Of a stretch of 64,000 nucleotides of DNA, positions 47,847-64,000 are shown in pieces (the first letter of the stretch is position 1; the number at the start of each line of letters is the position of its first letter). The position numbers were made by a program, and so were the translations under genes. Origin of the DNA: Myxococcota bacterium (GTDB lineage Bacteria > Myxococcota_A > Bradymonadia > UBA7976 > UBA1532). The DNA is taken from assembly GCA_963169045.1 (NCBI GenBank), contig CAUJDF010000044.1, forward strand, positions 124,001-188,000, written 5' to 3'. The notes under the pieces are model-generated. The model was given only the letters and a program-made list of their open reading frames with translations. It was not told where the DNA came from and searched no databases.

Positions 47847-48448
47847 GACGCCTCCAGGCGCTGGCGCGCTTCGGCCTGTAGCGCGGCGAGCGTCCGCTCG
47901 AGCTCCGCGCGGCACGATTCGGGATCGGTCTCGGGGCTCACGCGGAGCGGCTCACCGACCAGCACGAGCGCGCGCGCGAACGGCCGCGGCAGGAGGTAGG
48001 CGTCCCAGGCGCGGCGCAGGCGATGACCACCACCGACGGCGACCCCCACCGGCCAGATGGGCACGCCCGAGCGGCGCGCCAGAAAGACGACGCCGGGCTT
48101 GACGCGGCCTGGAGGGCCGCGCGGGCCGTCCACGGCGACGAGCGCCACGCTGCCGGCTGCGAGGGCGCGCAGGAGCCCCCGCGCCGCTCGGGCGCCGCCG
48201 CGGCTGCTGGACCCGTCCACCGACCCGATGCCGAGGCGGGCGAGGATGCGCGCCTGAAGGCGACCATCCTTGCTGAGGCTGACCGGCGCCACGAGCGCCA
48301 TGCGGCGCGGCCGGACGCCCAACAGCGGCAGCTGGTCGCCATGCAGGAAGGCGAGCACCCCCGGTCCGGTCACCGGCGCCCCCTCGATTCGGTAACGCAA
48401 CGTCGCCGTCCACAGGCGGATCACGAGGGCCGCGAGCCAGGGAAGCAC
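47828..48448 (-). CDS. DUF374 lysophospholipid acyltransferase-like protein
   Basis: A 206-residue DUF374-family protein of the LPLAT superfamily. Visible are GVLAFLHGDQLPLLG with the catalytic His-x4-Asp-like pair (HGDQ), VSLSKDGRLQARILARLGIGSVDGSSSRGGARAAR and VDGPRGPPGRVKPGVVFLARRSGVPIWPVGVAV. DUF374 genes often accompany lipid A and Kdo genes, and the protein probably acylates a lipid A-related substrate; the exact step is not established. Start GTG 48448, 3 bp after the MsbA-like stop. Confidence 0.85.
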   Translation of the reverse strand: MLPWLAALVIRLWTATLRYRIEGAPVTGPGVLAFLHGDQLPLLGVRPRRMALVAPVSLSKDGRLQARILARLGIGSVDGSSSRGGARAARGLLRALAAGSVALVAVDGPRGPPGRVKPGVVFLARRSGVPIWPVGVAVGGGHRLRRAWDAYLLPRPFARALVLVGEPLRVSPETDPESCRAELERTLAALQAEARQRLEASCVPSG

Positions 48449-48451
48449 GGG

Positions 48452-50152
48452 TCAGGCGGCGACGGCCCGCGCTTCGGCGCGCGGGGCGAGAGCGACGACG
48501 CGATCCGCCAACTCGAGCAGGGCCGCGTCGTGGGTGATGAGGAGGACCGTGCGCGCGCGCGCCACCTCGGCGAGGGCATCCCGGAAGGCGGCGGCGGCGG
48601 CGACGTCGAGGTGCGCCGTGGGTTCGTCGAGGATGAGCACCGCCGGACGCCGCACCAGCGCCCTGGCGAGCGCGACGCGCTGTTGCTCACCGCCGGAGAG
48701 TCCGGCGCCACCGTCGCCCAGCGGCGTCTCCCAGCCGAGAGGCAGCCGCGCGACGATCGGCGCCAGTCCCGCCAGAGCGGCCGCTTCGTCCAACCCGGCG
48801 GCGTCACCGGCACCGAAGAGCACGTTCTCCCGCAGGGTCCCCCGGCCGAGCAGCGGCGCTTGCGTCACCCAGCCGAGGGAGCGTCGCCAGGCGGTGACGT
48901 CCAGACTCACGAGTGGCCGCCCGTCGACGCACACGTCGCCCGCCGAGGGGTCGACCAGCCTCGCCACCAGCCAGGCCACCGTCGTCTTGCCGGCACCGTT
49001 CGGTCCTGTGAGCGCGGTGATGCGCCCGGCGGGCAGCTCCAGGTCGAGGCCGGCCAGGACCTCGCGACCACCCCGGCTGACCGACACCGCCCGCAGCGCG
49101 AGCGAGGGCGCCGTCGACGGGGGCGGCTCCCCTCGCCCACCTCCTGGTAGCTGCTCAGCGAGGGTCAGGACCGCGACGATCCGGTCGAGGGCGGCGCGCC
49201 CCGGCGCGAGGAGGCCTTGGGCGCGCGCGAGCCCCTTCGCCGGCTGGTAGAGCATCATCAGCGTCGCGAAGAAGCTCATCACCGTCTCGGGTGAGAGCGC
49301 GCCGTCCCTCACGCGGCCCGCCGCATAGAGGAGGGTCGCAGCGAGCGCGGCGGCGCCCAGCACCTCAGCCACCGGGGACGCCGCGGCTCGCAACGCCACA
49401 CCGTGTACGGTAGCGCGCGCGGCGGCGGCGGCGGCGGCCTCGAACTCGGAGGCGGCGCGGGCTTCGGCTGCGCTGAGCTGAATGAGCGGGAGGCGTGCGA
49501 GATGCTCGTGGGCGACGGTCGCCAGGGCGCCGCGCCGCGCGTGCTGTGATGCCGCCTCGCGCCGGAGACGGCGCCCGAAACGCAAAATCGGCCAGAATCC
49601 AACGGGATACAGCCCAATCGCGAGGAGCGCGAGCATGGGGTCGAGCGCGATGCAGCAGGCGACGAGCGCCACCGCGGTGAGGCCGTCGCGGACGACGGCG
49701 GCGAGCCCCCCCGTGAACAGACGTTCGGCGGCGTCGGCATCGTGGGTCAGACGGCTGTGCAGGTCGCCGGCGCCGAATGCGTGCGCCGCGTCCGGTGGAA
49801 GGGCCAGCAGCCGCCCGTGCAGGCGAGCGCGCAGGTCGAGGACGACCGCCTGACCCAGACGCGCCATGCCCACCTCCTGCCGATGAAACGCGAGCCCCTT
49901 CAGGACCGCCACCGAGAGGATCAGCCCAGGCAGCCAGCGCCGCAGGGTCTCCACGTCGGGCGGAGTTGGGAGGACCCCGCCGAGGGCGGCGGGCCACTGC
50001 AACGCCTCCCCACCGAAGAGCGCGCGCAGCGCGGGACCGGCCAGCAGACCGTAAGCGCTCGTACACGCGGCCAGCACGGCCATCCAGCCGAAGGAGGCGA
50101 CCATCGCGCCGACATGGCGTCGGACGAGCGCTCTGACCGAGGGGCCGATCAC
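48452..50152 (-). CDS. MsbA-like ABC transporter (fused permease-ATPase)
   Basis: A 566-residue half-transporter. The N-terminal six-helix ABC exporter domain (about 10-320) includes VVLDLRARLHGRLLALPPDAAHAFGAGDLHSRLTHDADAAE, the typical exporter coupling region. The ATPase domain has Walker A GPNGAGKTT, the Q-loop VTQAPLLGRGTL, signature LSGGEQQR, Walker B VLILDEPT and H-loop ITHDAAL. Place in a group with DUF374 and heptosyltransferase genes argues for MsbA, the flippase of core-lipid A, though CydCD-type or peptide exporters look similar. Start GTG 50152; divergent from the PilZ-J gene by 56 bp. Confidence 0.85.
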   Translation of the reverse strand: MIGPSVRALVRRHVGAMVASFGWMAVLAACTSAYGLLAGPALRALFGGEALQWPAALGGVLPTPPDVETLRRWLPGLILSVAVLKGLAFHRQEVGMARLGQAVVLDLRARLHGRLLALPPDAAHAFGAGDLHSRLTHDADAAERLFTGGLAAVVRDGLTAVALVACCIALDPMLALLAIGLYPVGFWPILRFGRRLRREAASQHARRGALATVAHEHLARLPLIQLSAAEARAASEFEAAAAAAARATVHGVALRAAASPVAEVLGAAALAATLLYAAGRVRDGALSPETVMSFFATLMMLYQPAKGLARAQGLLAPGRAALDRIVAVLTLAEQLPGGGRGEPPPSTAPSLALRAVSVSRGGREVLAGLDLELPAGRITALTGPNGAGKTTVAWLVARLVDPSAGDVCVDGRPLVSLDVTAWRRSLGWVTQAPLLGRGTLRENVLFGAGDAAGLDEAAALAGLAPIVARLPLGWETPLGDGGAGLSGGEQQRVALARALVRRPAVLILDEPTAHLDVAAAAAFRDALAEVARARTVLLITHDAALLELADRVVALAPRAEARAVAA

Positions 50153-50172: not shown

Positions 50173-50201
50173 TTGCGGCCCCCAGCCCCCCCGATTACGA
50201 T
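50173..50201 (+). promoter_or_regulatory. candidate leaderless promoter for PilZ-J gene
   Basis: TTGCGG (50173-50178), 17-bp spacer, TACGAT (50196-50201). Seven bases separate the -10 from GTG 50209, so the transcript would start at the start codon. The -35 match is only 3/6. Confidence 0.35.
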
Positions 50202-50208
50202 CGACGCT

Positions 50209-51165
50209 GTGACGTCCCCACACACGACCGCGGAGCCCGCGCCGCCGGCGCGCATCGCCGCCCGCATGCGCTTCGAGGATCCCGCCAAGTTCGTGGAATT
50301 CTACGAGAAGCAGCTCTCGCAAGGGGTCGTCGGCCTGCGACACCCGGAGCCTCTCGCCCAAGGGACGAGCATCCAGGTTCTCGTGAGCCCGCCCGGCGCG
50401 GCAGACCGGCTGCGGCTCGAGGGCCGCGTCACCCGAGGCACGCCGCGGGCTGACGGCACAGTTCGCCTGCGCGTCGAGGTTCGCCTCGACGACGCGGACC
50501 GCCAATGGCTCGAGGCCTACCTGACGGGTCTGCGCGTCGCGCGTGCCCAGGCCGCCGACGTGCCGACCCCTGACGAGTCGACGGAGTGGCAGTCGCACCA
50601 GGGGGGCGAGTCCGTGGCCGCGCCAGAAGCGTTGGCGCTCTCGGCCCGCCTCGACACCATCAGCTACTACCAGCTGCTCCGGGTTCCGGTGGACGTAGAG
50701 CCGCGCCAGTTGCAGCACCGGTTCCACGAGTTGACGCGTCGCTATCACCCCGACCTCTACTTCGCGCTGCCGGACGGGGAGCTCCGGTCGGCGATCGACC
50801 GCATCTACCGCCGCATGAACGAGGCATACGGCGTCTTGCGCGATCCGCGCCGGCGCCGGATGTATGAGCGCGGGCTGCAGGGTGCGCCGCACACGTGGCG
50901 GCTCCGGTTGAGCGAAGAGGACGAGCAGGCGGCGCAGCGTTTGGCGCGCACGCGACGCGGGAGCACGGGACCGGGCCACTACTACTGGACGATGGCGCGC
51001 GACGTCCTGGAGCGCGCGCGTCAGCTCGACAACGGCATCCGCCCGGCGTTGCGCGAGTCGGCGCGTCTCCTGCGCACGGCCATGGTCTTCGAGCCCGACA
51101 ACGAGCATTTCAGGCACGCGCTCGAGCACGTCAGCGACCGGCTCGCCATGCCGGAGGACGACTGA
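50209..51165 (+). CDS. PilZ-like domain fused to J domain
   Basis: A 318-residue cytoplasmic protein. Residues 15-115 resemble a PilZ domain of the myxobacterial type (MRFEDPAKFVEFYEKQLSQGVVGLRHPE, GTSIQVLVSPPG, LRLEGRVTRGTPR), which in some proteins binds c-di-GMP; the canonical RxxxR and D/NxSxxG motifs are not evident, so ligand binding is uncertain. Residues 150-215 are a J domain with intact HPD (180-182, RRYHPDLYF), followed by helical TPR-like repeats (YYWTMARDVLERARQL, LLRTAMVFEPDNEHFRHALEHV). GTG 50209 is used; ATG further in would cut the PilZ-like domain. It is a third J-domain fusion in the window. Confidence 0.78.
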   Translation: MTSPHTTAEPAPPARIAARMRFEDPAKFVEFYEKQLSQGVVGLRHPEPLAQGTSIQVLVSPPGAADRLRLEGRVTRGTPRADGTVRLRVEVRLDDADRQWLEAYLTGLRVARAQAADVPTPDESTEWQSHQGGESVAAPEALALSARLDTISYYQLLRVPVDVEPRQLQHRFHELTRRYHPDLYFALPDGELRSAIDRIYRRMNEAYGVLRDPRRRRMYERGLQGAPHTWRLRLSEEDEQAAQRLARTRRGSTGPGHYYWTMARDVLERARQLDNGIRPALRESARLLRTAMVFEPDNEHFRHALEHVSDRLAMPEDD

Positions 51166-51200: not shown

Positions 51201-51974
51201 TCAGAAGGCCCCGCCCCACCCGACGCCAACCCCGATGCCAGGAACGACCCCGATTTCGACGTGCGGCTCGGCGGTCGCCGTCGCGTCGGCCTGCCACCAA
51301 AGGTAGACGGCGGCGGCGGCGGCCAGAGCGCTCACGCCGAAGGAGATGTCGGCGACGAGCGCCTTCCCCTCGGCGGCGTCCTTGTGCTTCGTGGCCACGG
51401 CGCGGGTGTCCGCGGAGCGGGCCGACGAGGCCTCTTCGAGGGCCTGCAGTCCGAGAACGGTACCCGCTGCCAGCGCAGCGAGGGAGGTGCCCGCCGCAAC
51501 CCAGGGCCAGGGGCCCGGTCCCTCCTCGACCACGCGCGGGCCCTCGACGAACGGGTTCTGCGCGGGCGCGCCGGTAGGCTCGGCCGGGCCGGCAGGCTCG
51601 CCGCCGAGCTGGCGAATGTGGTGGATGACCGCCGTCTCGTCGGCGGGCTTGGTCGCCAGGTAGGCCTGGTACCACTGAATGGCGCCAGGCTTGTCACCGA
51701 GGCGCTCGCGGCTGCGCGCCACGTTGAAGAGCAGATCGCGGTGCTTCGTGAGGACGTAGGCCCCCTGGAAGGCGACCGCCGCCTGTTCGAAGCGCCCGGC
51801 ACGATAGTGCCCGAGCCCCTGAAAGAACTGCGCCTCGGCACGGTCGAGCGAGGCCTGGTCCAGGCGGGCGATCTCCGGCGTCTCCGCCTCGACCTCGCCG
51901 GACTCCTGCCCGCGCGCGCCGAGCGGTGCGAGGCCCACTGCCAGCGAGAGGAGCACGCTGCCACGCATCGTCAC
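51201..51974 (-). CDS. exported TPR protein with two C-terminal hydrophobic segments
   Basis: A 257-residue protein with signal peptide (SVLLSLAVGLAPLGARG), a TPR-like region (QFFQGLGHYRAGRFEQAAVAFQGAYVLTKHRDLLFNVARSRERLGDKPGAIQWYQAYLA), a proline-rich linker and two hydrophobic segments near the C-terminus (WVAAGTSLAALAAGTVLGLQ, FGVSALAAAAAVYLWW), ending in a glycine/valine-rich tail. It is the last gene of the minus-strand run. Start GTG 51974 overlaps the MopE-type gene's stop (GTGA); ATG 51968 is possible. Function unknown, probably membrane-associated with the preceding gene product. Confidence 0.68.
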   Translation of the reverse strand: MTMRGSVLLSLAVGLAPLGARGQESGEVEAETPEIARLDQASLDRAEAQFFQGLGHYRAGRFEQAAVAFQGAYVLTKHRDLLFNVARSRERLGDKPGAIQWYQAYLATKPADETAVIHHIRQLGGEPAGPAEPTGAPAQNPFVEGPRVVEEGPGPWPWVAAGTSLAALAAGTVLGLQALEEASSARSADTRAVATKHKDAAEGKALVADISFGVSALAAAAAVYLWWQADATATAEPHVEIGVVPGIGVGVGWGGAF

Positions 51975-54900
51975 TGCACCGCGCAGACGGTGAGATCACC
52001 GCAGTCCGGCGAAGGCGGCCCAGCGCGGCAGCAGCCCTCGAGCCCGCCGTAGCCATCGTTGCCGGCGCGAGCCGGCATGCCACACCCCTCGACGTCGGCG
52101 CCACCGCCAGCCCCGCCGCGGCCGGGTTGGCCGGCGCGGAGCGTTCGCGTTGCCGCGTTGCCCTGGTTCGCCTCGACCTGACCGGCGGCGTTCTCATAGA
52201 CCACGGTCGAGCGAGCGAGGTTCGCCGCCAGCTGATTCGTCGAGACGCGGAAGATGGCGAAGCTCGGTCCACCCGCGCCGCCGCCCGAATTGCCTCCGCA
52301 GCCGCCGCGACCGCCGTCCCCGCCGGTGCCGCCCTGACCGCAGGTCTGGCAGTTCCCGCGAGCCCCACCATCGTTGCCGGAAGTCCCCGGTCGGCCCGCG
52401 CCGCCGGAGCCGCCCTCTCCACCCTGCCCGCCCTGGCCCGCCACGAGCTCGCTGTCGCGCAGGTGGACGTTCCCGCCGACGATCTGGAGGGCGAACGATC
52501 CGCCGCCCCCGCTCGCGCCGCGGCCGCCGGTGCCGGCGCACCCGCCCGCACCGCCGCCGCCGCCGCCGCCGCCGACCCCGTTCGTGCTGTTCACCGAGCC
52601 GCCGCCGCCGCCGCCGCCGCCGCCGCTCCCCGGCGTGCCCGCCGTCGCGTCGCCTCCCTGGCGCGGAACCCAGAGCAGGCGCGGGCTGCCCATCGGCTGG
52701 TCATCGATGCGACCCTCGGGGCGCGCCGCAGACGCGTTGATGCCGTGGGCGCCGTCATCGCCCGCATCACCGTCGCCGCCGCTCATCATCTGAGCGCCGA
52801 GAGCGCCGCCGTCGCCGCCGCCATCACCGGCGCCGGGGTCGCCGGCCCGCGCAGGCAGGTTGTCCATGCGCCGTGCACGCCCGCCGTCTCCGCCGCGCCC
52901 GCCAGCCGTACCGTTGGGACAGCCGTTGTTGGTGCCGCCGTTGCCGCCGCAGCCGAGACAGACGGCTTCCTCGCCCGGCGAACCGGGCTGCCCCGGCGTC
53001 GCCTCCGCCGAGCCGGCGCGGCCATCCGGGCCGTCGCTCCCACGTCCACCTTCACCCGCTTCGGCGCGGACGTTCCGCAGCACGAGGTGCTCACCGACAT
53101 TCACCGCCAGGATCGCGACCGAGCTCTCGTCCGCCTCGGCGTCGTCGGCGCGCACCAGGACGTTGTCGAGCATCGTCGCCGCGTTCAGGTTCTCGTACCG
53201 CAGGACGACGGACGCGCCGGTGATCACCGAAGCGTTCACGTCACGCGTCCCGCGGCTCCACGTATCGCCGATCGGGTCATAGCGATAGCCGCCGTGGATG
53301 CTGACGCCAGTCGGCACGACGAGGGTGTCGCCGTCGAGGTCGTAGGTACCCGCGTCGAGGTAGACTGCGGCGCCAACGAGGCGCGCCACCGAGACGCCCT
53401 GCTGAAGCGTGCGGTATGGCCCGTCGATGCGACCGGTGCCGGACTGATCGTTGCCCCCCGTGATCGACACGAAGACGGCGCGCTCGGCGTCACCATCGAC
53501 GCCGTCACAGTTCGTATCGGTGAACAGCGGTCCCGGATCGGGCGCGTCGGGCGAATCCGGATTGCACTCGCAGCCGTTCTCGACGACCCCGTCCTGGTCG
53601 AGGAAGCCACCGAAGCAGTCGATCGGCAGCAGCGTGCACTCACCCGACTCGCAACGGGGCCGCGCGTTGGGCAGATTGCAGGGGTTTCCGCAGCGCCCGC
53701 AGTGGAGCGCGTCGGTCATCAGGTCGAAGGTCTCGTCTGTCTGGCCGTCGCAGTCGTTGTCTCTGAGGTCGCACGTTTCATCTTCGGCCGGGAGGGGCTG
53801 CCGGTCGCACGTCGTCCGGGTGCCGTCCGCCGGGTGACAGACGAGACGACCGGTCTGCTCACAAGCGCCCACGCCGACGGTGCAGGCCTCGCCGAGCTCG
53901 GGGAAGCCTTCGTCGGCGGTGCCGTCGCAGTTGTTGTCGATGTTGTCACCGCACAGCTCGTCGCGCGGCTCCGCCGCCTGCGCGTTGCACGTGGCGGAGC
54001 CGTCGGCCGCGCACACGATGACCCCCTCACGGCGGCATCCGCCGACGCCATCGAAGCAGGCGTCGCCCTTTCCGAGGCCCTCGTCGGTGGCGCCATCACA
54101 GTCGTTGTCGAGCATGTCGCAACGCTCGGCGCTCGCCTCGCCGGCGACAGCGTCGCAGCCGGCGGTGCCGTCGTCGTTACAGACCGTACGGCCGGTGCTC
54201 CGACAGACGCCCTGCCCGACGCTGCACTCACGGCCGAGGGCGAAGTCCTCGTCCGTCGCGTCATCGCAGTCGTCGTCCTTCTCGTTGCAGACATCGGGAT
54301 GCTCGCCGGGACGCGGCACTTCGGTGCCCTGCTCGTCGAGGCAGGGCCCGAAGCTGCCTTGCTGCTGGCCGTCCTCGACGGCGCAGCGCTGAAGGCCGGT
54401 GATGCAGATGCCCTTGCCCGCGCCGCACTGCCGCACCTGGCCCACCCTACAGGTGTTGCCGCCGCAGTCGGGGAGACCCTCGTCGGTGCGACCGTCGCAG
54501 TCATTGTCGACCTGGTCGCAGGCCTCGCTCTCGGCGGGAGCGCCGGCGGTCGCGTCGCATGCGGTGCCGTCGCCCCCGCAGACGAACGTGCCCGTGCGCT
54601 GACACGCGCCGACGCCGACCTCGCACTGCCGGCCGAGGTCGGAGAACGTCTGGTCGACGCGGCCGTCGCAGTCGTTGTCCTTGCCGTCGCAGACCTCACG
54701 GGCCTCGCCCACGGCGGACGTCCAGACGGCGTTGCAGCCCTGCTGCGCGGCGAAGTCGATCTTCGCCGATCCATCGCCGGCGACCGTGATGTCGTTGTTG
54801 GTCAGCTTGAGGACACAGAACGTCGCCTCGCTGCACGGGCTCCCGAACGAGAGGCCGCCCTCGTCGCACTTCGATGGCGTGAAGCCGTCCCCGTGCAGGT

Positions 54901-55255
54901 AGAGCTCGGCGCGGATGCGCTTGCCCGACTCCAGCGGAATCTCAGGAATTTCGTCGATCGGGACGAGGCGCTTCTCCTGCCAGCGGAACGGCACGTGGTA
55001 CACGCGGCCGGCGCCATCGTCGGCTTCCTGGACCAGCAGGCAGGCGTTGACGCCGTCACCCGCGACGAGGCCGTCCAGGCGTTCGCGGCAGGTGGTCTCC
55101 TTCCCGTCGGACAGCTTGCCGGTGTTGGCGTCGCCGAGACACCGGGTCAGATCGAGCGACAGGTCGACCGTCTCGCGCTTCACGCCGGGGTCGCAACCGA
55201 CGGCGACCAGCGCGAGCGCCAGGCCGAGCAGCCGGCGGTCGTTCCGCCTCGACAT
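51971..55255 (-). CDS. MopE-type metal-binding, glycine-rich lipoprotein
   Basis: A 1094-residue exported protein with lipobox-like VAVGC (C21). Residues 190-500 hold at least six MopE-type motifs (CDGxDNDCDGxxDE; for example DNDCDGRVDQ, DNNCDGTADE) separated by Cys-rich units. A middle domain (about 590-740) has a parallel-beta-helix feel (TGGNDQSGTGRIDGPYRTLQQG, ASVVLRYENLNAATMLDNVLV), and the last about 330 residues are extremely glycine-rich, with runs of nine and eight glycines coded by trinucleotide repeats, ending CCRAGPPSPDC. Such proteins occur on myxobacterial surfaces. ATG 55255 has GGAGGAGGG upstream. Its stop overlaps the next gene's start. Confidence 0.85.
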   Translation of the reverse strand: MSRRNDRRLLGLALALVAVGCDPGVKRETVDLSLDLTRCLGDANTGKLSDGKETTCRERLDGLVAGDGVNACLLVQEADDGAGRVYHVPFRWQEKRLVPIDEIPEIPLESGKRIRAELYLHGDGFTPSKCDEGGLSFGSPCSEATFCVLKLTNNDITVAGDGSAKIDFAAQQGCNAVWTSAVGEAREVCDGKDNDCDGRVDQTFSDLGRQCEVGVGACQRTGTFVCGGDGTACDATAGAPAESEACDQVDNDCDGRTDEGLPDCGGNTCRVGQVRQCGAGKGICITGLQRCAVEDGQQQGSFGPCLDEQGTEVPRPGEHPDVCNEKDDDCDDATDEDFALGRECSVGQGVCRSTGRTVCNDDGTAGCDAVAGEASAERCDMLDNDCDGATDEGLGKGDACFDGVGGCRREGVIVCAADGSATCNAQAAEPRDELCGDNIDNNCDGTADEGFPELGEACTVGVGACEQTGRLVCHPADGTRTTCDRQPLPAEDETCDLRDNDCDGQTDETFDLMTDALHCGRCGNPCNLPNARPRCESGECTLLPIDCFGGFLDQDGVVENGCECNPDSPDAPDPGPLFTDTNCDGVDGDAERAVFVSITGGNDQSGTGRIDGPYRTLQQGVSVARLVGAAVYLDAGTYDLDGDTLVVPTGVSIHGGYRYDPIGDTWSRGTRDVNASVITGASVVLRYENLNAATMLDNVLVRADDAEADESSVAILAVNVGEHLVLRNVRAEAGEGGRGSDGPDGRAGSAEATPGQPGSPGEEAVCLGCGGNGGTNNGCPNGTAGGRGGDGGRARRMDNLPARAGDPGAGDGGGDGGALGAQMMSGGDGDAGDDGAHGINASAARPEGRIDDQPMGSPRLLWVPRQGGDATAGTPGSGGGGGGGGGSVNSTNGVGGGGGGGGAGGCAGTGGRGASGGGGSFALQIVGGNVHLRDSELVAGQGGQGGEGGSGGAGRPGTSGNDGGARGNCQTCGQGGTGGDGGRGGCGGNSGGGAGGPSFAIFRVSTNQLAANLARSTVVYENAAGQVEANQGNAATRTLRAGQPGRGGAGGGADVEGCGMPARAGNDGYGGLEGCCRAGPPSPDCGDLTVCAVQ
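52551..52574 (+). repeat. (CCG)8 trinucleotide repeat
   Basis: Eight perfect CCG copies, coding for eight consecutive Gly on the minus strand in the glycine-rich lipoprotein. Confidence 0.9.
52599..52625 (+). repeat. (CCG)9 trinucleotide repeat
   Basis: Nine perfect CCG copies, coding for nine consecutive Gly on the minus strand. Copy-number changes would keep frame. Confidence 0.9.
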
Positions 55256-55269
55256 GCGCCCTCCTCCCC

Positions 55270-56394
55270 TCATTCCACCTTGAACAACGTCGGCGCGAAG
55301 CGGTCCGCCGCGGGCAACGCGTCGGCCGGATTCAATGCCCGACCGTATCGCGAACGCCAGTATTGAGTCAGCGCGGGACGATGGCCGTCGATGCCGGCGC
55401 CGACGTTGAGGTCGTCCCGCGACACGCCGTCGGCGCTCTGCGTGAAGATCGTCAGGGCGCCACCGGGCTCGAGGTATCCGACCACCAGCATGGCGACGCC
55501 GAACCGGTCGCTCATCTGGAAGAACAGATCGGAGATGTACGCCTCTCCGAAGGCGTCGTCGCCCTTGAAAACGAGGTCTGCGAGCGGATCGAAGTCCTCG
55601 CTTCGGTTCCTGGCCGGCTCGAGGCTCGCCTTCAGGGCCTCGCTCTTGCCGTTCTTCAGGTTGACCAGCGTCCCCCACCGGACGAAGCCCGCCTTGCGCA
55701 CCTCGACCATGTGCGGGCCTGCCGGCAAGAACGGATCGATGTAAGGCAGGTCACGGCCCACCACGCCCACGGGGTGATAGTCGATGAAGACGTGCCCGCC
55801 ATCCACGTTCGCCGTGACACGGAGCTCGGCTGTGCCCGCGACGGCCGCCGAGCCGCATTCGGCGGCGAGCGGTTCGAACTGCTCGATGGGTCCGACGCTG
55901 CCGGCGAGCGCCCGAGCGAGCGCCACGTAGCCGCAATACGCCTCCCGCGCCTCTTGCTCCTGGCCGGCCGCCTTCTTGGCCTGGTAGTAGGCATAGAAGA
56001 TGCCGCGCAGCAAGGCGGGCTCCGACGCGTACGGGATGGCCTTGTTGTAGAAGCGTTCGGCGCGGAAGAGCTGCTCGAGCGCCTCTTCGGCCTCACCCTT
56101 CTCGAGCGCGCGTTGGGCGTCGTTGAAGTGGCGCCGCGCCTTGTCGATGTCGGCCTTGCTGATCTTGCCGACGTCGAAGCGTGGTTCGATCGAACGGCTG
56201 CCCGGCACTTTGCTGCCCTGCTTGCGCTCGTGATCGAACATCAAGCGCAGATCGCGCTCGATGCGAATGGCCTGGTTGGCGTCGGCGCCCTTCCGTGCGA
56301 AGACGAGCGCCGCGACACCGCTCTTCTCGTCGGCGCCGGCGATCGCCGGCAGCAGCACGGCGACGGCGGCCAGAAGGCGCGCGAGACGTCTCAA
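55270..56394 (-). CDS. exported TPR/PEGA-domain protein
   Basis: A 374-residue protein with signal peptide (LLAAVAVLLPAIAGA). Helical repeats (ARRHFNDAQRALEKGEAEEALEQLFRAERFYNKAI; LLRGIFYAYYQAKKAAG) precede a PEGA domain (about 190-260: GTAELRVTANVDGGHVFIDYHPVGVVG, FLPAGPHMVEVRKAGFVRW), common in surface proteins of myxobacteria. A C-terminal conserved region ends ALPAADRFAPTLFKVE. The start is TTG 56394, chosen because it is the only start codon that precedes the complete signal peptide and forms a TTGA overlap with the TolB-like gene. A rare TTG start is a caution. Confidence 0.75.
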   Translation of the reverse strand: MRRLARLLAAVAVLLPAIAGADEKSGVAALVFARKGADANQAIRIERDLRLMFDHERKQGSKVPGSRSIEPRFDVGKISKADIDKARRHFNDAQRALEKGEAEEALEQLFRAERFYNKAIPYASEPALLRGIFYAYYQAKKAAGQEQEAREAYCGYVALARALAGSVGPIEQFEPLAAECGSAAVAGTAELRVTANVDGGHVFIDYHPVGVVGRDLPYIDPFLPAGPHMVEVRKAGFVRWGTLVNLKNGKSEALKASLEPARNRSEDFDPLADLVFKGDDAFGEAYISDLFFQMSDRFGVAMLVVGYLEPGGALTIFTQSADGVSRDDLNVGAGIDGHRPALTQYWRSRYGRALNPADALPAADRFAPTLFKVE

Positions 56395-57536
56395 GGCGCC
56401 TTCGCCTCCGCCTTCGGCTTCAGGTCGTCGGTCGAGAACGTCACGACGTACAGGCGCTCCCAGGTCTTTTCGCTCGAGCCGCGCTGACCGAGCGCCTTGA
56501 AGGCCAACGACATCATGCCGCCGCTCGCCCACACGGCCAGATCGGAGTTGAGCTGCGTGCCGGTGTCGAGCGTCCCGCTCGCGGAACCGTCGGCGCGCGC
56601 CCACTGCACCGGATTGTCGTTCTTGAAGTCGTGCTTCACGAACAGGACCGTCTGGCCGTCGGGGGCCCAGGCGGGGCCCAGGTGGTCGTCGACGACGACG
56701 TTGGTCGCGAGCTTCTTGGCGTTCTCGCCGGTGATGTCGATGACCCAGAGGTCGAAGACCTTGTCGCTCGTATTGCCATTGTTCGAGTAGAACGCGATGC
56801 GCTTGCCGTCGGGCGACCACGACGGACGGAGCTCGTCGCCGGGCCAGCCGGTGAGCATGCGCGTCGTGTCGCGCGGCTGGCGCACGTCCATGACGAGGCC
56901 GATGTCCTGACCCTTCGAGGCGCTTTCCGAGCGGGTGAAGATCACGCTCGGCGACTTCGGCGAGAAGCGCGGAAGAAACTCCGTCGCATTCGGCCAGAAA
57001 GTCAAGCGCGTCGACTTCGCATCGTTCTGCAGGTCGATGACGTACAGATCGCCGGAGTCTTCGCGCTGCGAGGTGTAGACGATGTACCGGCCATCGCGCG
57101 ACCAGGCCGGCTGACCGTCGTTGCCGTTGTTCTCCTCGGTCATCCAGTTGCCGTCGGCGAAGAGGTCGAAGTTCTTCTTGGCGCCGCGGCTGCTGAACAC
57201 GAACGGATCGTTCAGCAGCTTCATGTCGGGCGCCCACTCGAACTCGACCACCGGCGGCTTCTTGCCACCGAGCAGTGCCGCCGCGCCCATCCGCCCCGCG
57301 GCCACTTCTCGCTGACCCTTCTGGCGGCCGTCCGACGTGAACTCGACGATCCAGGTCTCGCGCGTGTCTTCCTTCGGGTTGTAGACCTCATAGGCGAGCT
57401 GCTTGCCGTCGGGCGACCACTTGGGCGCCTGACAGTGCGCGGCGGGGCGGTCGGCCACCTGCCGCGGGGTGCTGACCTCGGCGGACGCGCCACCGGCGAG
57501 CAGCAGGATCGCCGCCGTCAAATGTCGATTCTTCAC
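56391..57536 (-). CDS. TolB-like PD40 propeller protein, exported
   Basis: A 381-residue protein with signal peptide (TAAILLLAGGASA) followed by at least five PD40/WD40-like blades with the typical W-S-x-DG motif (PKWSPDGKQLAYEVYN; PAWSRDGRYIVYTSQ; PRFSPKSPSVIFTR; PSWSPDGKRIAFYSNN; PAWAPDGQTVLFVKHD). TolB propellers lie in the periplasm and bind Pal or other partners; there is no N-terminal TolB domain, so it is only TolB-like. Start GTG 57536 overlaps the upstream stop (GTGA) and its stop overlaps the PEGA gene start (TTGA). Confidence 0.85.
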   Translation of the reverse strand: MKNRHLTAAILLLAGGASAEVSTPRQVADRPAAHCQAPKWSPDGKQLAYEVYNPKEDTRETWIVEFTSDGRQKGQREVAAGRMGAAALLGGKKPPVVEFEWAPDMKLLNDPFVFSSRGAKKNFDLFADGNWMTEENNGNDGQPAWSRDGRYIVYTSQREDSGDLYVIDLQNDAKSTRLTFWPNATEFLPRFSPKSPSVIFTRSESASKGQDIGLVMDVRQPRDTTRMLTGWPGDELRPSWSPDGKRIAFYSNNGNTSDKVFDLWVIDITGENAKKLATNVVVDDHLGPAWAPDGQTVLFVKHDFKNDNPVQWARADGSASGTLDTGTQLNSDLAVWASGGMMSLAFKALGQRGSSEKTWERLYVVTFSTDDLKPKAEAKAP

Positions 57537-58300
57537 GGGCGCACCCTCAGTCCACTGGCCGAGTTGATGACGGGGATCCGGACCGACTCTTCGGTCCGCG
57601 GCGTGTCGTCGCGCAGCAAGAAGAAGGCGGCCACGCCGGCCGCTGCCGCCACCCCGGCGCCGATGCCCACGTACATCCACGTGTTCGATTCCTCGGGCGT
57701 CTCGTCGCGCACAACCTGGAGATACAGCTCCACCGTCGGCGTCGACTCCCCCTGGACGATCGAGAAGGGCACGTTGTTCGCCAGGTAATCGCCGTACGGC
57801 AGGTAGATCGTGGTCGGCAGACGCACGTTCACCGAGCGGAAGCGCTCGCGAATGGACATGAACGTCTGCTTCTTCTCCTTGTTGATGATGCCGGTCTTGG
57901 CCTCGAGGAAGATGCGGCCTTCGGTGTTCGTCTCGCCCTTCGCCGGTGTGATGGTCACCCCGCCATAGAGGTTCGACATCTCCTGGACGAACGCCTCGAC
58001 CTTCTCGCGTTTGCCCTTGTCCTCGCCGGCGATCTGCTTCGCCTTCTCCGCCATCTCGAAGGCGACTTCGAGGAGCAGCAGCTTGTAGCCGGCCTGGGCG
58101 CGGTAGAAGACCGTCGCGAAGTCCTTGTCGCCGCCGGGGAGCCTGTAGGCCTTGTCCAGCTGGTCCTTGGCCGGCCGGAAGCGCTCCTTCTTGAAGTAGA
58201 GGATGCCCTGGTCGCGGGTCTCCTCGAGCGACTGGGCCGACGCACGCGCAGGCGTGAGCAGGGCGAGCACGAGCAGCCACGCGAGCGGCAAGGCTCTCAT
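57533..58300 (-). CDS. exported helical protein with C-terminal membrane anchor
   Basis: A 255-residue protein with signal peptide (PLAWLLVLALLTPARASA), a helical/TPR-like domain (RDQGILYFKKERFRPAKDQLDKAYRL), a beta domain with EGRIFLEAKTGIINKEKKQTF and FRSVNVRLPTTIYLPYGDYLANNVPF (PEGA-like spacing), and one C-terminal membrane helix (YVGIGAGVAAAAGVAAFFLL) followed by a periplasm-unlike basic/acidic tail. I do not recognise a named family. ATG 58300 overlaps the OppF stop (ATGA), and its own stop overlaps the TolB-like start. It is the first envelope gene behind the transporter. Confidence 0.72.
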   Translation of the reverse strand: MRALPLAWLLVLALLTPARASAQSLEETRDQGILYFKKERFRPAKDQLDKAYRLPGGDKDFATVFYRAQAGYKLLLLEVAFEMAEKAKQIAGEDKGKREKVEAFVQEMSNLYGGVTITPAKGETNTEGRIFLEAKTGIINKEKKQTFMSIRERFRSVNVRLPTTIYLPYGDYLANNVPFSIVQGESTPTVELYLQVVRDETPEESNTWMYVGIGAGVAAAAGVAAFFLLRDDTPRTEESVRIPVINSASGLRVRP

Positions 58301-59307
58301 CGGACATCCTCCACGGGCGTTTCGGCTGCGAAACAGGCTACCCGGTGCCCCGGGGCCAACGCCACGAGCGCTGGCCTCCGGGTCGAGCACCGCTCCAAGA
58401 TGCCCAATCGCGCCGCGAGTTGGCAATCCGCTGCGAACACACAACCGACCGGCGCCGCGGCACCGGTCGACGGCGCGTCCGGATCGAACGTCGACGCCTT
58501 CGCCTGCAGCGGATCGCGGTCTTCGAGGAACTCGGCCGCACGCGCCAGCTTCTGCGTGTACGGATGGTGAAAGGCGCTGCTGCCGAGCTCGGCGACGGGC
58601 ACCTCCTCGATGATGCGCCCCTTCAGCATCACGAGGACGCGATCGGCGATTCGCCGCACCAGGCCCAGATCGTGGCTGATGACGAGATACGTCAGCTCGG
58701 GATCCTTCAGGTTCCTGAGGAGGTCGATGATCTGGAGCTTGATGGCCGCGTCGAGGCCGCTCGTCGGCTCGTCGGCGACAACCAACTTGGGACGCGTCGC
58801 GAGGATGCGGGCGAGGCCGGCGCGGCGGCGCTCGCCACCGGAGAGGCTGCCCGGCCGCTGGTCTGCGCGGGCGCCGAGGCCGACGCGATCCAGCAGTTCC
58901 TGTGTGCGCCGCCCTCGACCGGCGGCGTCGAGATCGGGCCGATGCAGCCGCAACGACTCGTCCATCATCTCGCGGACGGTCATCGCCGGATGCAGGTTCG
59001 CCGCCTGATTCTGGAAGACCATCTGGAAGTCGCGGCGTCGATGGCGCAGCGCGCCGCGGCCGAGCGCGAACAAGTCGTCGCCCTCGAAGCGCACGCTGCC
59101 GCCCTCGATCGACGTGAGGCGCAGCAGGACCTTGCCGAGAGTCGTCTTGCCGCTACCGGACTCCCCAATCAAAGCAACGACTTCGCCCCGATAGAGGTCA
59201 AAGTCGACGGCGTCGAGCGCGCGTGTCTCGGCGCGACCGCGCAGCAGGCTGCCGGCGCGGAACGTCTTCACGACGCCGCGGGCCTGGGCGAGGAGAGCGC
59301 CGCTCAT
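58297..59307 (-). CDS. oppF: oligopeptide/dipeptide ABC transporter ATP-binding protein (OppF/DppF type)
   Basis: A 336-residue ABC ATPase: Walker A GESGSGKTT, Q-loop VFQNQAANLHP, signature LSGGERRRAGLARIL, Walker B LVVADEPTSGLD, H-loop VISHDLGLV. The C-terminal HPYTQKL plus a Cys-containing extension (GCVFAADCQLAARLGILERCSTRRPAL...HRVACF) is the Opp/Dpp-specific iron-sulfur-like tail. It pairs with the OppD-type ATPase to power peptide import. Start ATG 59307 overlaps the preceding stop (ATGA). Substrate could be dipeptides, oligopeptides, nickel or other; not decidable. Confidence 0.93.
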   Translation of the reverse strand: MSGALLAQARGVVKTFRAGSLLRGRAETRALDAVDFDLYRGEVVALIGESGSGKTTLGKVLLRLTSIEGGSVRFEGDDLFALGRGALRHRRRDFQMVFQNQAANLHPAMTVREMMDESLRLHRPDLDAAGRGRRTQELLDRVGLGARADQRPGSLSGGERRRAGLARILATRPKLVVADEPTSGLDAAIKLQIIDLLRNLKDPELTYLVISHDLGLVRRIADRVLVMLKGRIIEEVPVAELGSSAFHHPYTQKLARAAEFLEDRDPLQAKASTFDPDAPSTGAAAPVGCVFAADCQLAARLGILERCSTRRPALVALAPGHRVACFAAETPVEDVR

Positions 59308-60203
59308 GCCGCGTCCCCCTGCCCGACGGCGAGGCCGGACGCCGCCAGCAGCGAAGCCGTGTACTCGGCCCGCGTCCCGATGCCGTCGCGCAATGCCGCC
59401 GAGCTCGCCGTCTCGAGAACGCGCCCGTGGCGCATCACGATCACGCGGTCGGCCAGGTGGAGCACCTCGCGGATGTCGTGGGAGATGTACAGCATCGAAC
59501 GCCGCCGATCGGCCATCAACTCACGGAAGAGCGCGACGATCTCGGCGCGGACCGTCGAGTCGAGGCCGGTCGTCGGCTCGTCGGCGATCAGCAACCGCGG
59601 CTGGCACGCCAGCGCGATCGCGATCATCGCCCGCTGGCACATGCCGCCCGATAGCTCGTGCGGGTAGCTGGCGAACACGCGGGCCGGATCGTTCATGTGC
59701 ACGCGCTCGAGCCACTCGAGCGCTCGTCGCCGGACCTCCGTCTTCGCGAGCGTTGGCTCGGCCACGCGGACCGACTCGGTGAGCTGCTCGCCGATGCTCA
59801 TCAGCGGGTCGAGGGACTGGCGAGGGTTCTGGAAGACGGCAGTCGCGACACGTCCCCACAGCGGCCGCATACGGCGGTGGACGAGACGCTGCCACCGACG
59901 ATCGTCCTTGCGGACCGGACCGTCGTCGCGACGCCGGAGGACAGTCGGCAGCGCCTCGAGGAGCGCGTGCGTCGACGTCCCGTCGTGGAGGCGGATCTCG
60001 CCGCCGACGATGCCCGGCCGCCCCGCGACGAGCCCGAGCACCGACAGCGTAGTCATCGTCTTGCCGCTGCCCGACTCCCCCAAGATGCCGAGCACCTCGC
60101 CCTCGGCGAGCTCGAGGGTGACACCGTCGACCACGCGTCGACGACCCGTCGGCGTGTCGAACTCGATGACGAGGTCTCGGATCTCGAGGAGATTCGCGCT
60201 CAT
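59304..60203 (-). CDS. oppD: oligopeptide/dipeptide ABC transporter ATP-binding protein (OppD/DppD type)
   Basis: A 299-residue ABC ATPase with Walker A GESGSGKTM, Q-loop VFQNPRQSLDPLMSIGEQL, signature LSGGMCQRAMIAIAL, Walker B LLIADEPTTGLD and H-loop ISHDIREVL. An insert of about 35 residues after GGEIRLHDGT (HALLEALPTVLRRRDDGPVRKDDRRW) is longer than usual. It lacks the long Cys-rich C-terminus, consistent with the OppD side of the heterodimer. Start ATG 60203 overlaps the OppC stop (ATGA). Confidence 0.92.
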   Translation of the reverse strand: MSANLLEIRDLVIEFDTPTGRRRVVDGVTLELAEGEVLGILGESGSGKTMTTLSVLGLVAGRPGIVGGEIRLHDGTSTHALLEALPTVLRRRDDGPVRKDDRRWQRLVHRRMRPLWGRVATAVFQNPRQSLDPLMSIGEQLTESVRVAEPTLAKTEVRRRALEWLERVHMNDPARVFASYPHELSGGMCQRAMIAIALACQPRLLIADEPTTGLDSTVRAEIVALFRELMADRRRSMLYISHDIREVLHLADRVIVMRHGRVLETASSAALRDGIGTRAEYTASLLAASGLAVGQGDAA

Positions 60204-61018
60204 CGCGTCTCCTCGGCGCGGCGGGCCACCAGATTGCCGAACGCGAGGAAGCTCGCGATGGTAATCACGATCGCGACGGCGGGGAAGAGCCAGGGCCACG
60301 CGCCGATGCCGAAGAGCTCCTTGGCCTGCGCCACCATGTTGCCCCAGGACGGCGCGGGCTCCTGGACACCGTAGTCCCCCAGATACGCCAGCGCCGTCTC
60401 GACGAACAACACGTATCCGAACACGTACATCGCCTGGCGAATCAGAAGCGGTCGGCACTGCAGCCAGAGGATGTGGTAGACCAGAATGCGCGCCGGCCGG
60501 AAGCCGTGGGCCACGTGCGCCAGGATGTAGTCCTCGCTGGCGAGCGCTTCCACCTTGCGGCGGATGACGGTCGCGTTGGCGGGAATGAACAGAATGGCCG
60601 CGACGAAGGCAATCAGAAGAATCGACGGGTTCAGGATGGTGCAAACGAGAATGATGAAGACCAGCCGCGGGAGCGTGTCGAGGAGCTGCAGCACGCCGAG
60701 CACGGCGCTGCGGATCGGACCCTGGAAGTAGCCGGCGACGGCACCCGCCACGGCGCCGAACAGTGTCGCGAGCGCTGCCGCCATCAACCCCGGCAGGAAG
60801 AAGGCTTCCGTCCCCTTGAGGAGGCGCATCGCCACGTCGCGGCCCTGTGCGTCGGTGCCGAAGAGGTGGTCTCCCGAGGGCGGCGCGAGCGCTCCGTCGA
60901 GGTTCACGTCGGCCACCGGATCGTACGGGATCATCGGCGCCGCCAGGCCGGCGAGGATGACGAGCGCGACGATGCAGCCGCTCACCCAGAGACCGAGGCG
61001 TCCCGTGCTAGCCCCCAC
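60200..61018 (-). CDS. oppC: peptide ABC transporter permease (OppC/DppC type)
   Basis: A 272-residue inner-membrane permease: N-terminal TM helix (LGLWVSGCIVALVILAGLAAPMI), the conserved PYDPVADVNLDGALAPPSGDHLFGTDAQGRDVAMRLL segment of OppC-type permeases, several further TM helices and a coupling loop ILAHVAHGFRPARILVYHILW. GTG 61018 is chosen because GAGGTGG lies six bases upstream; GTG 61030 is also possible. It overlaps oppB by 11 bp (or 23) and oppD by 4. The call is firm, the start is not. Confidence 0.9.
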   Translation of the reverse strand: MGASTGRLGLWVSGCIVALVILAGLAAPMIPYDPVADVNLDGALAPPSGDHLFGTDAQGRDVAMRLLKGTEAFFLPGLMAAALATLFGAVAGAVAGYFQGPIRSAVLGVLQLLDTLPRLVFIILVCTILNPSILLIAFVAAILFIPANATVIRRKVEALASEDYILAHVAHGFRPARILVYHILWLQCRPLLIRQAMYVFGYVLFVETALAYLGDYGVQEPAPSWGNMVAQAKELFGIGAWPWLFPAVAIVITIASFLAFGNLVARRAEETR

Positions 61019-61985
61019 GAGCCACCTCACGTGGATCGACGATCGCCCGCACCACATCGGCCAGCAGCCCGACGGCGATGATGGTGACCGTGAACAGCAC
61101 GCTCAACCCGACGACCACGGGGAAGTCGCGCTCGCGGGCAGCCTCGAGCAGCAGATAACCGGCGCCCTCGAGCGTGAAGACGTACTCCACGATGACCGCG
61201 CCGCCGAGCACGATGGGCAGGCGCGAGGCGAACGCCGACACGAACGGCACGACGAGGTTGCGTGCGATGTGTCGCACGACGCCGGCGCCCTTCGCGCGCA
61301 CCGCAGCGATGAACTGGGCGTTGCGGAGGGCGTTCAGCTCGGCGCGAACCGTGTTCAAGTAGTCCATGTAGAGGCCGTCGCCCGCCAGCAGGACCAGGCC
61401 GGCGAACACGTACGGCATCGCCGAGTCAGACGCGATCGGGATCGGGTACCAGACGGGGGTCTCGTAACCGCCCTGCTCGACGAACGCGTGGACGAACCAG
61501 TTCATCCCTTGCGTGAAGAGCACCGCGACGACGTACGACGGCGCGGCCGTACCGAAGTAGAGCGGGCCGGTGAGCCACTGCTGGCGGGCGCTCGGATCGC
61601 CGAGGAGCATGGCGCCGAGGAGGGCCAGCAGTCCGGCGGCGAGCAGCGAGACACCGGCGAGGGCGAGCGTCTTCACGAACGCCGGTCCGGCGACCGCCAT
61701 GACCGGCTCCCCTGCGGCGACCACCAGCGATTCGCCGAAGTCGCCGGTCGCCGACCGCCCGAGCCATGTCACGTAGCCCGAGAGCGGGTCGCGATCGAGA
61801 CCGAACTCCGCCGCCAGCTTCTGCTTCAAGTCGTCGGGCGTGCCCATCGGTGTGATGGCGTCGACGGCATCGCCGGGCGCCGAGCGGATGGTCACATAGA
61901 TGATGAAGCTCGCGCCGACGAGCAGGAGGAGGCCCGCCGCCGCGCGCCGCAGCGCGACGAGCAGCAGGCCTGTGACCCGGTTCAC
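61008..61985 (-). CDS. oppB: peptide ABC transporter permease (OppB/DppB type)
   Basis: A 325-residue inner-membrane permease of the binding-protein-dependent transport family. The N-terminal TM helix ends GASFIIYVTIRSAPGDAVD, the FGLDRDPLSGYVTWLGR periplasmic segment follows, and the coupling loop reads AAVRAKGAGVVRHIARNLVVPFVSAFASRLPIVLGGAVIVEYVF, all OppB-type. GTG 61985 overlaps the binding-protein stop (GTGA), so expression of the two is coupled. Confidence 0.92.
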   Translation of the reverse strand: MNRVTGLLLVALRRAAAGLLLLVGASFIIYVTIRSAPGDAVDAITPMGTPDDLKQKLAAEFGLDRDPLSGYVTWLGRSATGDFGESLVVAAGEPVMAVAGPAFVKTLALAGVSLLAAGLLALLGAMLLGDPSARQQWLTGPLYFGTAAPSYVVAVLFTQGMNWFVHAFVEQGGYETPVWYPIPIASDSAMPYVFAGLVLLAGDGLYMDYLNTVRAELNALRNAQFIAAVRAKGAGVVRHIARNLVVPFVSAFASRLPIVLGGAVIVEYVFTLEGAGYLLLEAARERDFPVVVGLSVLFTVTIIAVGLLADVVRAIVDPREVARGG

Positions 61986-63529
61986 GGCTGCAGCTCCCAC
62001 TCCTCGAACGACGTGAAGTAGTAGTACGGCTGGATGAAGACGCCCTTCACCTTGCGGCTGATGCCCGAGTACACGTCGAGCGACCACAGGAAGTCGTACG
62101 GCAGGTCCTTGGCGAGGACCTCGTGGAGCTTCTTCATGAACTCCTTGTACTTCTTGTAGTCGCGCGTCGCCTTCGCCGTGTCGAGCAGCGTGTCGACCTC
62201 GGCGTTGTTGTAGTTGATGAAGTTCATCACCCCCTTGCTGTGGAACAGCGGGTAGACGTCCTCCACCTCTTCGAAGGACCAGACGTTCATCGTCAGGTCG
62301 AACTTCTTGCGGCTGAACACCTGGTCGCGGTACCGGGCGTGGTCGACGTACTCGGGACGCACGGTCACGCCAATCTTCTGCAGCTGCGCCTGCATGCCGA
62401 GGAACAGCGCCTGACCGCTGGCGAGCTCCTTGTCCATCACGAACATCAGGTCGAGCTTGTTCTTGCCCTTCTTGCGCACGTTGCCTTGCAGCTTGTAGCC
62501 CGCCTGGTCCAATAGCTGGTTCGCGCGCTCGATGTCCTGCGCACGGGGCTCGACCTGGAAGTTGTAGAACGGGCTCGACTCGGTGAAGGGTCCGCTGAGG
62601 ATGTCGCCGCGCCCCAAGTGGGCCTCGAGCAGCTCCTCGCGGTTCAGCGCGAGCGAGATGGCCTCGCGGACGGCCTGATCCTTGAGGGGACCGCTGCTGT
62701 GATTGAAGGCCATGTACCACCAGGAGACCGTGTGGTACGGCTCGAGCACGACCGAGTCGCTGTTCTCGAACAACGGAATGTTCTTGGGCGGGAGGAAGAT
62801 GACCGCCTGGACGCCAGCCTTGCCGCCGGAGTACTGCAGCAGGTTCACTTGCGCCGACTTGTCGGGCGTGTGCTGCATGAGGATCTCGCCGACCTTCGGC
62901 GGGTTCCAGTAGTCGGGATTCGCTTCGAGCGCCACCGAGCGGATGCTGAATCCGCCCTTCTTCACCATGTACGGGCCCGTACCGACCGGGTTCCGGTTGA
63001 AGTTGTCCTTGTGGCTGAGCGCCGTGCCCTTGAACTGCGCCTTGGGCAGGATCTTGAAAAGGAAGCGGCGCTCCGGGTCGGGAATCTGCCGGTCGAAGGC
63101 GACGTGCACTGCGAACTGGCCTTCGACGGTCGCCTCCCTGATGAACGAGAACTTGCTCTTGGCGTTGAAGACCGTCTTCGGATCCTTCGCCGCGTTGATC
63201 GTGAAGGCGACGTCATCGGCGGTGAAGGCCGAGCCGTCGTGCCACTTCACGCCCTCACGCAGGACGAACCGGATGCCGCCGTTGTCGGGGTCCACCTTCC
63301 ACGAGGTGGCCAAGGCGCCTTCGACATCGCCGCGCTTGTTGATGACCACCAGCGAGTCGAAGATCAGCTCGACCATGCGCACCGAGCTCATGTCCTCCGC
63401 GAAGAAGGGCAGAAGCGAAGTGGGCCGGGTGTCCTCCGGGTAGCGGAACGTCTGCTGCGCGTGCGCCGACGGCACCGCGCCTGCGACGAGCGCCAGGAGC
63501 GCCAGGCTCATGAGGCCACGGTTGGTCAT
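61982..63529 (-). CDS. oppA: peptide-binding ABC transporter substrate-binding protein (SBP family 5)
   Basis: A 515-residue periplasmic binding protein, signal peptide ending PSAHA with a soluble mature form starting QQTFRYPEDTRPTSLLPFF. Family 5 signatures: LFDSLVVINKRGDVEGALATSW, FVLREGVKWHDGSAFTADDVAFTI, NPVGTGPYMV and a C-terminal segment with a helical KKLHEVLAKDLPYDFLW. It would capture oligo- or dipeptides (or a similar ligand) for OppBCDF. ATG 63529 has AAGGAG 11 bases upstream, a little far. It is the second gene of the minus-strand run, with a 49-bp gap to the first. Confidence 0.92.
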   Translation of the reverse strand: MTNRGLMSLALLALVAGAVPSAHAQQTFRYPEDTRPTSLLPFFAEDMSSVRMVELIFDSLVVINKRGDVEGALATSWKVDPDNGGIRFVLREGVKWHDGSAFTADDVAFTINAAKDPKTVFNAKSKFSFIREATVEGQFAVHVAFDRQIPDPERRFLFKILPKAQFKGTALSHKDNFNRNPVGTGPYMVKKGGFSIRSVALEANPDYWNPPKVGEILMQHTPDKSAQVNLLQYSGGKAGVQAVIFLPPKNIPLFENSDSVVLEPYHTVSWWYMAFNHSSGPLKDQAVREAISLALNREELLEAHLGRGDILSGPFTESSPFYNFQVEPRAQDIERANQLLDQAGYKLQGNVRKKGKNKLDLMFVMDKELASGQALFLGMQAQLQKIGVTVRPEYVDHARYRDQVFSRKKFDLTMNVWSFEEVEDVYPLFHSKGVMNFINYNNAEVDTLLDTAKATRDYKKYKEFMKKLHEVLAKDLPYDFLWSLDVYSGISRKVKGVFIQPYYYFTSFEEWELQP

Positions 63530-63578
63530 TGTCGGTCTGGCTCCTTCAACTGCTGACGCGGGGCCGTCGCCCCCACTC

Positions 63579-64000
63579 TCACTGCCCCGCGGCGGCGCTG
63601 CCGGCCTGGTCCATGGCACGCGCCGTGAGAAGGTCACGAAGCATGTCGGACGGGCCGGCCACGTCGGGGAGCTTCTCCGCAAGGCGGCTCAGATACTTGA
63701 GGGCGACGCGTGGGCGGCCGAGCCCGACGTTGTCGCGGGCGGCGCACGCCAAGGCGGGCAGCCGGTTTCGCGGCGAAGGGCTGAAGGCGTTCGCCTTGTC
63801 TTCGGCCTCTTCGCGCATTTTGACGCCGAGCGCTTCATTCCCACCTCGGGAGAGCGCCTCGGCAAACCGAATCTGAACCTGGTCGGCGTATCGGTCGACC
63901 AGCCCGAGGGCCGCCACGTCGGCCGTCCCCTTCGCCGCCTGCCCCAGCGCCGCAAGCTCGTCTCCGAGAGCGCGCGTGAGCACGCCGCGGTCGTCGGGGA
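63579..64000 (-). CDS. C-terminal part of TPR-like protein
   Basis: The frame is open to the right edge, so only the last about 140 residues are visible, and the true start may lie outside. The piece is helical with TPR-like spacing (ALGLVDRYADQVQIRFAEALSRGGNEALGVKM; ALACAARDNVGLGRPRVALKYLSRLAEKLPDVAGPSDML) and no membrane helix. It is upstream of the peptide-binding protein by 49 bp on the same strand, so it is probably the first visible gene of the transporter-envelope run. Function unknown. Confidence 0.55.
   Translation of the reverse strand, partial: PDDRGVLTRALGDELAALGQAAKGTADVAALGLVDRYADQVQIRFAEALSRGGNEALGVKMREEAEDKANAFSPSPRNRLPALACAARDNVGLGRPRVALKYLSRLAEKLPDVAGPSDMLRDLLTARAMDQAGSAAAGQ

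Follow-up and report, generated by a model that had tools for sequence, protein, structure and literature searches.

A conserved run of Opp/App-type importer, envelope-protein and Hanks-type kinase genes in a Myxococcota bacterium

Gene content and organization of the locus

A run of 15 genes that places an Opp/App-type importer next to envelope proteins and a Ser/Thr kinase was analysed in the 9.0-Mb draft genome of a Myxococcota bacterium of the order UBA7976 (assembly GCA_963169045.1, G000). The window, that is, the whole stretch of DNA that was analysed, covers 64,000 nucleotides of contig CAUJDF010000044.1 (G000:C44:124001-188000), and the upstream flank was taken from locus L010; a window-based coordinate beyond 64000 is the L010 position plus 62000. 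All genes of the run lie on the minus strand, between 51201 and 70212, with the kinase gene at the head. As an earlier note on this DNA had claimed, the open reading frame coordinates give the one-strand order of a family-5 solute-binding protein (SBP5), OppB, OppC, OppD and OppF followed by five exported proteins. The same note had let the block begin at a tetratricopeptide (TPR) protein ahead of oppA, whereas four more same-strand genes were found to precede it, the kinase gene being the first. The run is bounded on both sides, since a convergent DnaJ/PilZ gene ends at 51165 and a divergent gene begins near 70400.

The importer genes comprise an exported OppA-type SBP5 protein without a lipobox (61982..63529; Pfam SBP_bac_5 231.4 bits, cut-off 32.4), the OppB-type and OppC-type permeases (61008..61985 and 60200..61018; BPD_transp_1 50 and 44.9 bits, cut-off 26.4), and the OppD-type and OppF-type ATPases (59304..60203 and 58297..59307). 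The start of OppC may be 61018, 61030 or 61057. Both ATPases match ABC_tran (85.5 and 111.6 bits) and carry the Walker A sequence GESGSGKT together with LSGG. The oligo_HPY C-terminal region of Pfam is absent in OppD and lies just under the cut-off in OppF (25.2 bits vs 27.1). When the curated NCBIfam equivalogs (Opp1-5, Dpp, Nik, Gsi) were considered, the best scores of the importer proteins were all far under the cut-offs.

The first of the five exported proteins, here called the anchor (57533..58300, minus strand), matches no Pfam family. AlphaFold2 models it (predicted local distance difference test score, pLDDT, 82) as TPR helices and a PEGA-like beta domain, with a transmembrane helix at the C-terminus (residues 207-229); a fold search in the PDB returned TPR matches only, none of them at E<=0.001. 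It is followed by a TolB-like periplasmic beta-propeller (56391..57536; PD40 93 bits), an exported helical-repeat/PEGA-like protein of 374 amino acids (55270..56394) found within its class only in the window's order, a glycine-rich lipoprotein of 1094 amino acids with a lipobox and five stretches of the Cu-binding_MopE motif (51971..55255), and finally an exported TPR protein with one transmembrane helix (51201..51974). The propeller was rejected as TolB itself (TIGR02800 97.5 bits vs a cut-off of 343.15). Among the domain labels proposed earlier, those of the PD40 propeller and the MopE motifs stand above their cut-offs, the TPR label of the last gene holds only at the cut-off (TPR_2 27.1 vs 27), and the PEGA label falls below it (PF08308 18.3 bits vs 20.8). 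The genome as a whole contains 70 PEGA-domain matches, which is unusually many.

Five genes precede oppA. The nearest encodes a TPR-type lipoprotein of 529 amino acids (63579-65168; the window holds its 3' part, 63579..64000), and distant relatives have a homologue of it ahead of oppA. In the upstream flank, also on the minus strand, there follow a lipoprotein named CR2 (65173-66882), a carboxypeptidase-regulatory-type protein (CR; 66883-67317), a small exported protein (67317-67778) and a Ser/Thr kinase with a transmembrane helix and a C-terminal PEGA domain (67861-70212; Pkinase 153 bits). The kinase motifs GEGGMG, HRDLKPDN and DFG are intact and mark it as a Hanks-type enzyme.

The genes are tightly packed. 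The seven 4-bp overlaps, the longer oppB/oppC overlap and the two short gaps listed in the earlier note were all recovered: GTGA at OppA/OppB (61985/61982), anchor/TolB-like and MopE/TPR, ATGA at OppC/OppD, OppD/OppF and OppF/anchor, TTGA at TolB-like/PEGA, an overlap of 11-50 bp at OppB/OppC depending on the start chosen for OppC, a 14-bp gap at PEGA/MopE (alternatively an ATGA overlap at 55273) and a 49-bp gap at TPR/OppA. Further upstream, the gaps are 4 bp (TPR/CR2), 0 (CR2/CR), -1 (CR/small exported protein) and 82 bp (small exported protein/kinase). A promoter scan found none in the window part of the run and a single promoter-like site on the plus strand, divergent from the kinase gene; in a terminator scan of the run, counts were near chance.

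Such packing alone proves little, because 4-bp overlaps are common in this genome, occurring in 18 of 67 sampled same-strand neighbour pairs, and they were dropped as a stand-alone measure of operon-level coupling. The same frequency would favour the explanation that unrelated genes overlap by chance in a densely packed genome and that the block is meaningless. This explanation is refuted by the conservation of the gene order in two families of the order and of the same core in 10 more families, described below, and is now hardly credible.

Conservation within the order and class

Wherever the contig is long enough, the loci of the order share the arrangement kinase, small protein, CR, CR2, TPR lipoprotein, OppABCDF, anchor, TolB-like, PEGA, MopE and TPR. 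An anchor-type protein occurs in all 16 genomes of the order, and the PEGA and TolB-like proteins occur in the same 13 of the 16. OppA is present in 12 of those 13; in the remaining genome (G008), where no OppA match was obtained, the contig ends in OppD. The second family of the order (f2) has the same gene set with no detectable MopE protein. In a second paralogous cluster of the window's own family (L125, L126), oppA and oppB are separated by the anchor and propeller genes. In class genomes outside the order, neither the TolB-like protein nor OppA was found at the thresholds used, and one genome gave a marginal PEGA match (E=5.9e-9).

The MopE, PEGA and last TPR genes were rejected as core members, being confined to the window's order and, in the case of MopE, missing in f2. 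They are order-specific additions, and deep conservation as partners of the importer is seen for the TPR/PEGA-like anchor, the TolB-like propeller and the upstream lipoproteins. In the same family, anchor paralogues were also observed beside or near MopE-motif proteins without opp genes (L026, L027, L029, L036, L037), which is interpreted, from the gene neighbourhoods, as a second use of the anchor.

Conservation across the phylum

An OppA scan retrieved two metagenome-assembled genomes (MAGs) from lakes whose OppA is 33-34% identical and whose gene order is the same; their clusters include CR, a CR2-like protein, the TPR lipoprotein, an anchor-like protein and a TolB-like propeller. By profile search (E<=1e-90), the OppA clade was detected in 65 of 379 genomes of the phylum, 55 of them outside the order and representing ten further families (f11, f15, f16, f19, f22, f24, f27, f29, f44, f50). 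A survey of the 41 distinct loci outside the order revealed a TolB-like gene in the cluster at 34 (one of them cut by a contig end), and most of these also have anchor, CR, CR2-type and TPR lipoprotein genes in unchanged order. The remaining loci comprise two cut by contig ends (L186, L196), one nearly so (L190), one without a TolB-like gene (L201), and three with a lone OppA-clade binding protein without permease genes (L180, L184, L202), a kinase gene being near in L184 and L202.

Two subtypes can be distinguished among the loci outside the order: set I (L163-L179), in most of which a divergent kinase lies upstream, and set II (L181-L200, L204), where the kinase is on the same strand or fused. 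Profile-profile comparison by hhalign of the order with set II gave E=1.5e-24 for the anchor, 1.4e-27 for the TPR lipoprotein, 1.2e-10 for CR and 4e-15 for the C-terminal domain of CR2; for the propeller, where the target profile combined set II and set I members, E was 7.8e-72. Gene order is not fixed throughout. In L191 (family f16) the anchor and propeller genes stand between oppA and oppB, and in L197-L199 an anchor-like gene comes after the propeller gene instead of before it; that the partner set is kept despite such changes argues for function. The expectation that the transporter and envelope genes belong together withstands the refuting condition set in the earlier note, as related genomes keep them together in the order and in the 10 further families, a much wider range than expected.

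Several further observations concern individual clusters. Two OppA-type binding proteins are in tandem inside one cluster in L167 and L170, and in L182 (G194) OppA, OppB, OppC, anchor and propeller genes are present with no ATPase genes nearby. A cluster is also carried by a MAG titled Klebsiella pneumoniae (L042, contig CAMASI010000031.1), whose public name looks wrong.

Two controls were used. Four other SBP5 regions of the same genome (five proteins) contain conventional opp clusters or a binding protein by itself, and no partner genes. No partner was found either at any of 77 SBP5 loci of more distant origin, in other phyla. As judged by these comparisons, the conserved core is a CR-type small protein, two lipoproteins, an Opp/App-type importer, a membrane-held TPR/PEGA-like protein and a TolB-like propeller, with a Hanks-type Ser/Thr kinase at or near the head of the gene system.

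These data also bear on the explanation that the importer and the envelope proteins merely share a regulon, being co-expressed for the same life-style (e.g. feeding on prey or debris) and acting independently. The restriction of the last three genes (PEGA, MopE, TPR) to the window's order would agree with it, as would the anchor-like paralogues beside MopE-type genes without opp genes, which suggest that modules can be recruited separately. On the other hand, the anchor, propeller and lipoprotein set stays with one SBP5 clade over 10 further families, order changes place partners inside the opp genes, and other SBP5 loci are without partners. A shared regulon and nothing more is therefore considered unlikely.

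Kinase fusion and anchor structure

In L183, L188, L190, L193, L195 and L204, the kinase and the C-terminal domain of CR2 form a single protein, in place of the separate genes of the window's run, and a transmembrane helix lies between the two parts in the fully read sequences L188, L193 and L194. Because two members of the cluster are fused in relatives, the fusion is good evidence that the kinase and the CR2 protein act together. The fused protein of L188 (L188:15292-17967) has HMGLKPES in place of HRDLKPxN and may be a pseudokinase.

In the predicted model of an anchor homologue from L200 (pLDDT 86), residues 1-190 are the same and about eight strands follow; these strands resemble the 8-stranded outer-membrane proteins NspA, OmpA and OmpX and other barrels. 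Because this model contains an outer-membrane barrel, the anchor family is predicted to reach the outer membrane in relatives and to be held by a helix in the window genome.

Binding-protein clade and ligand class

The OppA clade is characterized by the near-invariant motifs SWW[YF], SGP[FY], W[STV]F (W.F) and FLW.L. In the OppA tree, the window sequence falls within an order-specific clade; the deeper joins are long branches and not to be trusted. The closest solved relative is the oligopeptide binder AppA of B. subtilis (1xoc, 188 bits in a PDB search), and a peptide is the most likely ligand class, as far as such resemblance can indicate it.

The W+3 position, which we take to be that of the Asp holding the N-terminus of the peptide in E. 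coli OppA/DppA, carries D in set II. In the window, f2 and set I, it is occupied by E, N or G. It was given up as a substrate indicator, as the residue varies across the clade. The AppA/NikA-like binding protein could instead work with these envelope partners in the uptake of a metal chelate, a glycan fragment or another small molecule. The SBP5 proteins as a group have many ligands, the best NCBIfam scores are divided between nickel-type and Opp4-type models and are all far under the cut-offs, and the restriction of D at W+3 to set II is of the same tendency; however, the closest solved relative is an oligopeptide binder. A non-peptide ligand is thus a substantial alternative, albeit the less probable one.

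Neighbouring genes

The convergent gene at the end of the run (50173-51165, plus strand) encodes a PilZ and DnaJ domain protein found at the same place in L022, L023, L024 and L031. The divergent gene at the other end (70400-72460, plus strand; L010:8400-10460) encodes a cysteine-rich lipoprotein; a homologue occupies the corresponding position in L041, and in L028 and L130 homologues are encoded upstream of the cluster. A DUF374 acyltransferase-like gene adjoins the gene for an ABC exporter-type protein (ABC_membrane and ABC_tran; 47828-50152, minus strand).

Proposed function

On the basis of gene content and order, homology, predicted folds and conserved co-occurrence, the run is read as one gene system, in which the importer, anchor, propeller and lipoproteins would form a trans-envelope uptake, and probably also sensing, system for a peptide-class ligand; we assign this reading a probability of about 0.65. 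From what is known of these families, the binding protein would pick up a small ligand, probably of the peptide class, in the periplasm and hand it to OppBC, with OppDF driving import. The anchor (an outer-membrane barrel in relatives, a transmembrane helix here), the propeller and the lipoproteins might together act as a scaffold in the periplasm, docking the importer to the outer membrane and aiding ligand capture. The kinase, whose periplasmic part is fused to the lipoprotein TPR domain in relatives, could read loading or flux and signal inside; that it reads the state of the importer is plausible. A more specific model, which would define a new class of trans-envelope machine for uptake and signalling, has the SBP5 importer permanently docked via the propeller and the TPR/PEGA-like protein (in the outer membrane or anchored in a membrane), with a receptor-type Ser/Thr kinase sensing its loading via a shared periplasmic TPR domain; it is put forward tentatively and is rather doubtful.

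Several points weigh against trans-envelope uptake of a peptide-class ligand. The substrate class rests on distant resemblance, with all scores under the NCBIfam equivalog cut-offs, and genes may stay neighbours through a shared regulon even if their products never touch. The window's own anchor is predicted to end in a transmembrane helix, not a barrel, and the set I anchor is weakly alike to that of the order (hhalign probability 51%). Moreover, the kinase is divergent or remote in set I loci, the fused kinase of L188 looks catalytically dead, and the L182 cluster is without OppD and OppF.

If the proposed function is true, some bacteria build peptide-type uptake across both membranes and couple it to signalling by eukaryotic-like kinases, around a core fixed over about a dozen families. 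Several protein families at present without a function would then gain one, and a handle would be provided on food sensing or mutual sensing in myxobacteria-like cells.

Comparison with known systems

The earlier statement that no system of such composition has been described agrees with searches of an open-access library, in which no published description of the gene composition was found. The gene block is real and conserved and apparently undescribed, and the transporter itself is of a known kind. Opp-type importers are usually viewed as self-contained five-gene units. The run shares with the Opp/Dpp/App peptide importers (Transporter Classification 3.A.1.5; B. subtilis AppA, E. coli OppABCDF) the SBP5 protein, two BPD_transp_1 permeases, two ATPases with Walker A and LSGG, and the standard ABCDF gene order. 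It differs from them in its conserved envelope partners and kinase, in an OppD without oligo_HPY, in an SBP5 clade with its own motifs and in scores under the NCBIfam Opp/Dpp/Nik cut-offs. In a survey of Myxococcus xanthus transporters, only 3 proteins of the peptide/opine/nickel ABC family were listed (PMC3924187).

Among the partners, the propeller shares with TolB of the Tol-Pal system an exported periplasmic PD40 beta-propeller; unlike TolB, it scores below the TIGR02800 cut-off and adjoins importer genes instead of tolQRA/pal. The lipoprotein shares MopE-type metal-binding motifs with MopE, a copper-binding surface protein of Methylococcus, but only the short repeated motif is common to the two, and the window protein is order-specific and has a glycine-rich C-terminal part. 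Membrane Hanks-type Ser/Thr kinases with PEGA or TPR sensor regions are common in myxobacteria-like genomes, and the kinase of the run has the same kinase domain, transmembrane helix and PEGA domain. It differs from the others in being tied to a specific importer and in that its relatives are fused to a domain otherwise found in a separate lipoprotein of the cluster.

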